The position numbers and the translations under genes were made by a program. DNA of 64,000 bases from Brachyspira pilosicoli P43/6/78 (GTDB taxonomy: Bacteria > Spirochaetota > Brachyspiria > Brachyspirales > Brachyspiraceae), in contig NC_019908.1 in NCBI RefSeq assembly GCF_000325665.1, positions 682,001 through 746,000 of the forward strand. The letters are read 5' to 3'. The notes under the pieces are model-generated. The model saw only the letters and a list, made by a program, of their open reading frames with translations. It ran no database searches and was not told the origin of the DNA. This document shows, in pieces, positions 56,512 to 56,653 of this stretch (the stretch's first letter is position 1; every line of letters begins with the position of its first letter).

Positions 56512-56653
56512 AAATATTGCATTGGAGCCTTATATATTGCGCTAAGTATTCCTTAGTTTATTAAAGTATAATAGTTTTATAGGTATTCCTTTTTGTCTAA
56601 TTTAGATTATAAGGAATACCTATTTTTTTAAACTAAAAAAGTATGCAATATTT
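56512..56653. repeat. Nested inverted-repeat element (142 bp, MITE-like)
   Basis: Three nested perfect inverted repeats: outer AAATATTGCAT (56512-56522) with ATGCAATATTT (56643-56653); middle TTAGTTTA (56563-56570) with TAAACTAA (56629-56636); inner ATAGGTATTCCTT (56579-56591) with AAGGAATACCTAT (56611-56623). A small CTAAG/CTTAG hairpin competes with the middle pair. It contains no gene. No clear target-site duplication was seen. Confidence 0.7.

Follow-up and report, generated by a model that had tools for sequence, protein, structure and literature searches.

The 64,000-nt stretch of the Brachyspira pilosicoli P43/6/78 genome analysed here (the window) carries a figure of nested inverted repeats, 142 bp in extent, in the gap between a heavy-metal P1B-type ATPase gene and mscS, the gene for an MscS-type mechanosensitive channel. 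We conclude, with a probability of about 0.93, that this figure represents a dead copy of an IS481-like insertion sequence (IS) of about 1 kb that is common in Brachyspira, a copy whose interior has been deleted. This reading is adopted because both ends of the IS, the duplication of its target, empty sites in relatives and the absence of the transposase have been shown. In all likelihood the fold between the two genes is common mobile-DNA debris, not a riboswitch for mscS. The source genome, a single contig of 2,555,556 bp, was compared with 25 other Brachyspira genomes (26 with the source genome), and window positions 56480-56680 served as the query for the search across the genus.

In a global alignment to a 1043-bp copy of the IS (locus L007), window positions 56518-56570 correspond to IS positions 1-54 and 56571-56667 to IS positions 941-1043, and the 886 bp between IS positions 54 and 941 are missing. 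The element of 150 bp (56518-56667; minus, the strand of the lost transposase gene) retains some 53 bp from one IS end and some 97 bp from the opposite one, with TG...CA ends; that both ends stand in IS order within 150 bp and the interior is absent is the arrangement of a deletion derivative. Its left end (56518-56570, minus), on the 3' side of the transposase, starts with TGCATTGGAGCC, where full copies have TGCACAGGTGCC, and is identical to L007 and L011 at 17/23 and 24-25/30 positions. The right end (56571-56667, minus), on the side of the transposase promoter and leader, finishes with CTCATAAACA, where full copies have CTCTTAAACA or CTCCTAAACA, and is 81-83% identical to many IS copies over about 104-111 bp. 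Directly outside both ends lies AAATAT, as exact repeats at 56512-56517 and 56668-56673. On this reading, the insertion into the ATPase-mscS gap, which duplicated a short target, was made by an IS of this family or by a derivative already shortened and moved by a transposase encoded elsewhere, and the loss of the interior (IS positions of about 55-940) brought the left and right ends side by side.

Further, the same gap has no insert in three relatives that share the gene order (L025 in genome G012, L027 in G016 and L028 in G011), where AAATAT stands singly. The window flanks, joined with one AAATAT, align to the relatives' gaps with few differences in AT-rich DNA, and the gap of L027 is of equal length at the site and differs at a few bases. 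Taken together, AAATAT on both sides of the element and three empty sites show an insertion of the 150-bp element with its duplication in the lineage of the source genome; precise loss in three relatives is an unlikely alternative.

The fold itself, described in the earlier note as three nested perfect inverted repeats with a small competing hairpin, is present as claimed. The outer arms AAATATTGCAT and ATGCAATATTT (56512-56522 and 56643-56653) pair perfectly over 11 bp and the inner arms ATAGGTATTCCTT and AAGGAATACCTAT (56579-56591 and 56611-56623) over 13 bp; the middle arms TTAGTTTA and TAAACTAA (56553-56560 and 56629-56636) and the hairpin CTAAG-tattc-CTTAG (56542-56556) were read directly in the sequence. 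On either strand, the predicted RNA fold of 56505-56660 is stronger than that of 200 of 200 dinucleotide-preserving shuffles (z = -5.3 on the plus and -6.8 on the minus strand), and nowhere else in the 64-kb window do perfect arms of 11 bp or more, within 160 bp, enclose perfect arms of 13 bp or more. The 142-bp extent (56512-56653) holds for the fold and not for the element, whose limits are the two IS ends, with the 6-bp direct repeats outside them. In the outer left arm, the target duplication supplies 6 of the 11 bp and the IS contributes its first five bases; the arm that it pairs with is set 14 bases in from the right end. We regard the outer pairing as a coincidence: the AT-rich duplication together with the left tip chances to be complementary to the inner portion of the right terminal repeat. 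Inherited from the IS, the inner 13-bp hairpin belongs to its original design.

The parent IS is abundant elsewhere in the genus. The search returned dozens of matches in other species to positions 56566 to about 56670 of the element, at 75-90% identity, and many of them sit at contig ends, as expected of repeats. When the matching loci were compared with each other, the DNA common to them proved to be a repeated unit of about 1.02-1.04 kb (1017-1044 bp in full copies) that has the same two ends as the element and encodes one 301-aa protein on the reverse strand, intact in L011. The best NCBIfam model for this protein is NF033577 (transpos_IS481; E = 1.9e-46), at 158.9 bits below the curated equivalog cut-off of 224 bits; the next match is to IS3 (5.6e-25), and Pfam finds integrase core domains (DDE), with rve_3 over its cut-off. 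A sister subfamily (L117-L136; genomes G011 and G018) has 41-49% transposase identity, and G011 holds at least 90 transposase matches when the sister subfamily is included. The terminal inverted repeats are of the TGT...ACA type, TGTTTAGGAG...CTCCATGACA in the sister subfamily and TGTTTAGGAG...CACCTGTGCA in the main one. Shorter deletion derivatives also occur elsewhere (about 357, 513, 582 and 600 bp; for example L096, L097, L098 and L099; genomes G011, G008 and G010). Four loci (L118, L096, L151 and L152) are apparent hybrids, in which an end from one subfamily is attached to a leader or body from the other, and target duplications are missing from several copies; these two observations suggest recombination between IS copies in G011.

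The role of the inner hairpin can be read from the full copies. In the direction of the transposase, they show the end TGTTTA..., about 40 bases, a 5' arm AGGTATTCC, TTATAAT, a loop of about 20-35 bases in all, a 3' arm AAGGAATACCT with a plausible Shine-Dalgarno sequence, AAGGA, a few bases before the start codon, and the ATG; this order of hairpin, TATAAT, AAGGA and ATG is constant among the copies. The corresponding hairpin of the window spans 56579-56623 on the minus strand. In the main subfamily, the 11-bp pairing is found in 97% of the cells compared, against about 35-54% after sliding by 1-3 bases. The sister subfamily has the arms GTATCCTT and AAGGATAC, with the register shifted by four and with TTATAAT after the 5' arm and AAGGA before the ATG retained. 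Retention of the pairing there, although both the letters and the register differ, speaks for selection on it. The hairpin is likely a shield against transposase made from the transcripts of neighbouring genes. Transcripts entering from outside would carry both arms and fold, hiding the ribosome site, and the transcript of the IS itself, starting within the loop and behind the 5' arm, would lack that arm; this scheme is drawn from the anatomy of the leader and from analogy with IS10, IS50 and IS200. The window copy has ATA in place of the transposase ATG and has lost the gene, so that any such protective role has ended.

Three findings weigh against the deletion-derivative reading. The terminal repeats of the window element are degenerate, with 15/23 positions matching by our count. 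The covariation analysis of homologous sites proposed in the earlier note, run inside one IS subfamily, was uninformative: the letters hardly vary, there is one compensatory change, 64 of 500 shuffles score as high, and the signal is not significant; it is the sister subfamily that keeps the pairing with other letters. Finally, the duplication in the window is 6 bp long (7 counting the terminal A), and about 20 copies of the family, from both subfamilies, have perfect duplications of 15 bp (14-16); many others have none.

To accommodate this, the reading needs either that 9 bp were lost or that the family makes duplications of a second length. In the window copy, a match also extends over the first eight bases that a 15-bp duplication would have (AAATATAA), and a 15-bp duplication that lost 9 bp between AATATAA repeats would explain the 6 bp equally well; the empty site fits both. 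A 1083-bp copy with canonical ends (L155, at G011:C38:66730-67960) has a 6-bp duplication, TTATAA. It is conceivable, if rather doubtful, that this IS481-like family makes two discrete lengths, mostly 15 bp and in a few cases 6 bp (AAATAT in the window and TTATAA in L155); two instances of 6 bp are too few to claim it. Duplications in the IS481 family range from 2 to 15 bp, with 6 and about 15 bp both known, and IS481EU of parabasalid eukaryotes produces discrete lengths of about 4, 15 and 25 bp within single families (PMC10045372). The duplications of the Brachyspira copies, at 15 bp (14-16) and at 6 bp in L155, fall within the IS481 range, and two discrete lengths, if true, would be a bacterial counterpart of IS481EU.

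As to copy number, the genome search for further copies found dozens of right-end matches in other Brachyspira and no second copy in the source genome, where only weak AT-rich matches appeared (E of 6.7e-5 or worse). Searches of the source genome with the IS transposase (E 1e-10) and with the IS481 model (0.01) likewise gave no match. A published cluster of B. pilosicoli transposases, not equated with this IS, counts 47 copies in strain B2904, 7 in WesB and none in 95/1000 (PMC3532143), which fits gain and loss from strain to strain. The source genome of the element is one that has lost, or never retained, an IS family present as dozens of copies in others.

These counts also bear on whether the unit that transposed was the 150-bp form itself, which would make it a true miniature inverted-repeat transposable element (MITE); a full IS481-like element that the genome no longer has would then have mobilised it in trans. 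Both ends are kept, the missing part begins just past the transposase start codon, and the duplication flanks the short form, all of which would suit such a history; the duplication is silent on whether the deletion came before or after insertion. MITEs are usually multicopy. The deletion junction, however, has a single occurrence in the 26 genomes, and searches of GTDB species contigs and IMG/VR did not find it, the element's own record having possibly been left out of two of these searches. We regard a true MITE as possible and on the unlikely side. A search of the literature on Brachyspira MITEs found nothing relevant. The miniature transposable element proposed in the earlier note is correct in kind, given the ends of a multicopy Brachyspira IS, the target duplication and the empty sites, although the element is a single-copy deletion derivative and no amplified MITE family.

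Does the insertion matter to its neighbours? It lies, as the earlier note had placed it, between the stop of the ATPase gene (56676-58634, minus; TIGR01525 and TIGR01512 over cut-off) and the start of mscS at 56439 (55402-56439, minus; Pfam MS_channel domains). An ArsR-type regulator precedes the ATPase, and regulator, ATPase and channel are all on the minus strand. A 5' switch for mscS, one of the roles envisaged for the figure, is not supported, as the insertion is missing upstream of mscS in all 23 other genomes in which this region was read, the closest relative included, and the role that the pairing has in the IS accounts for it. Moreover, a candidate native mscS promoter, TTTAAA-16-TATAAT (56470-56497, minus; a consensus match only), is retained between the element and mscS; it is the same in L025 and L027 and nearly so in L028, and its intactness downstream of the insertion counts against a switch. 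A structured noncoding RNA or mscS riboswitch independent of transposons would have in its favour the strength of the fold against shuffles. An Rfam scan of the window, however, yielded two tRNAs only and no family at the element, the mscS upstream regions of relatives lack the structure, and the sequence is the end of a multicopy IS; we give this explanation practically no chance, contradicted as it is by the empty sites and the IS copies.

A further alternative is that the element has been exapted, altering the expression of mscS or the ATPase through the old transposase promoter or a fold met by read-through, and has been kept for that. The -10 box of the transposase, TATAAT (56606-56611, minus), does point at mscS, the minus-strand fold is stable, and a T-rich stretch follows the outer stem on the mscS side. 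Yet the distance from TTTAAA to this box is shortened to 15 bp (by our count) and the box is not among the promoters that the scan lists, no rho-independent terminator was found, the conserved mscS promoter candidate lies downstream, and the element occurs in one genome only among those examined. Exaptation is therefore improbable, although somewhat less so than an independent riboswitch. A 3' structure on the ATPase transcript, the other role proposed in the earlier note, could have an effect, as a by-product of the insertion. Overall, mscS most likely owes little or nothing to the element at present, and a mild polar or promoter effect is conceivable.

The start of mscS (56428-56439, ATGGAATACCTA) resembles a hairpin arm of the element (56611-56622, AAGGAATACCTA). 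As a regulatory link this likeness was rejected and is regarded as a coincidence: three relatives that lack the element have an identical mscS start, and in a fold of the whole leader the local hairpin is kept and wins. Elsewhere, single long arms are not rare in the AT-rich DNA of the window. One example is a perfect inverted repeat with 14-bp arms at 8914-9018, within the gene of a 140-aa membrane protein; it is conserved along with the gene and probably due to chance. Another hairpin, at 33780-33816, has a perfect stem of about 16 bp, ATACAAGAATTTTTAA...TTAAAAATTCTTGTAT.

With the annotation of a striking fold upstream of a channel gene settled as transposon debris, it is evident that the leader hairpin of a transposase and a target duplication can together mimic a nested, riboswitch-like structure. 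Among known systems, the full copies share with the IS481 family a single transposase with a DDE core, ends of the TGT...ACA type and a length of about 1 kb, but differ in a transposase score under the equivalog cut-off; the window element differs further in having no transposase. The window element is like MITEs in its 150 bp, inverted ends, target duplication and lack of a gene, and unlike them in its single copy and degenerate terminal repeats. The leader hairpins of IS10 and IS50 block the translation of transposase from outside transcripts, and Ellis and colleagues reportedly described in 2015 an IS200 leader hairpin acting against transposase translation. The Brachyspira IS has in common with these that its hairpin reaches the transposase's ribosome site and that the arms enclose a -10-like box, as its sequence shows; a protective effect in Brachyspira is predicted, from a putative transcript start.
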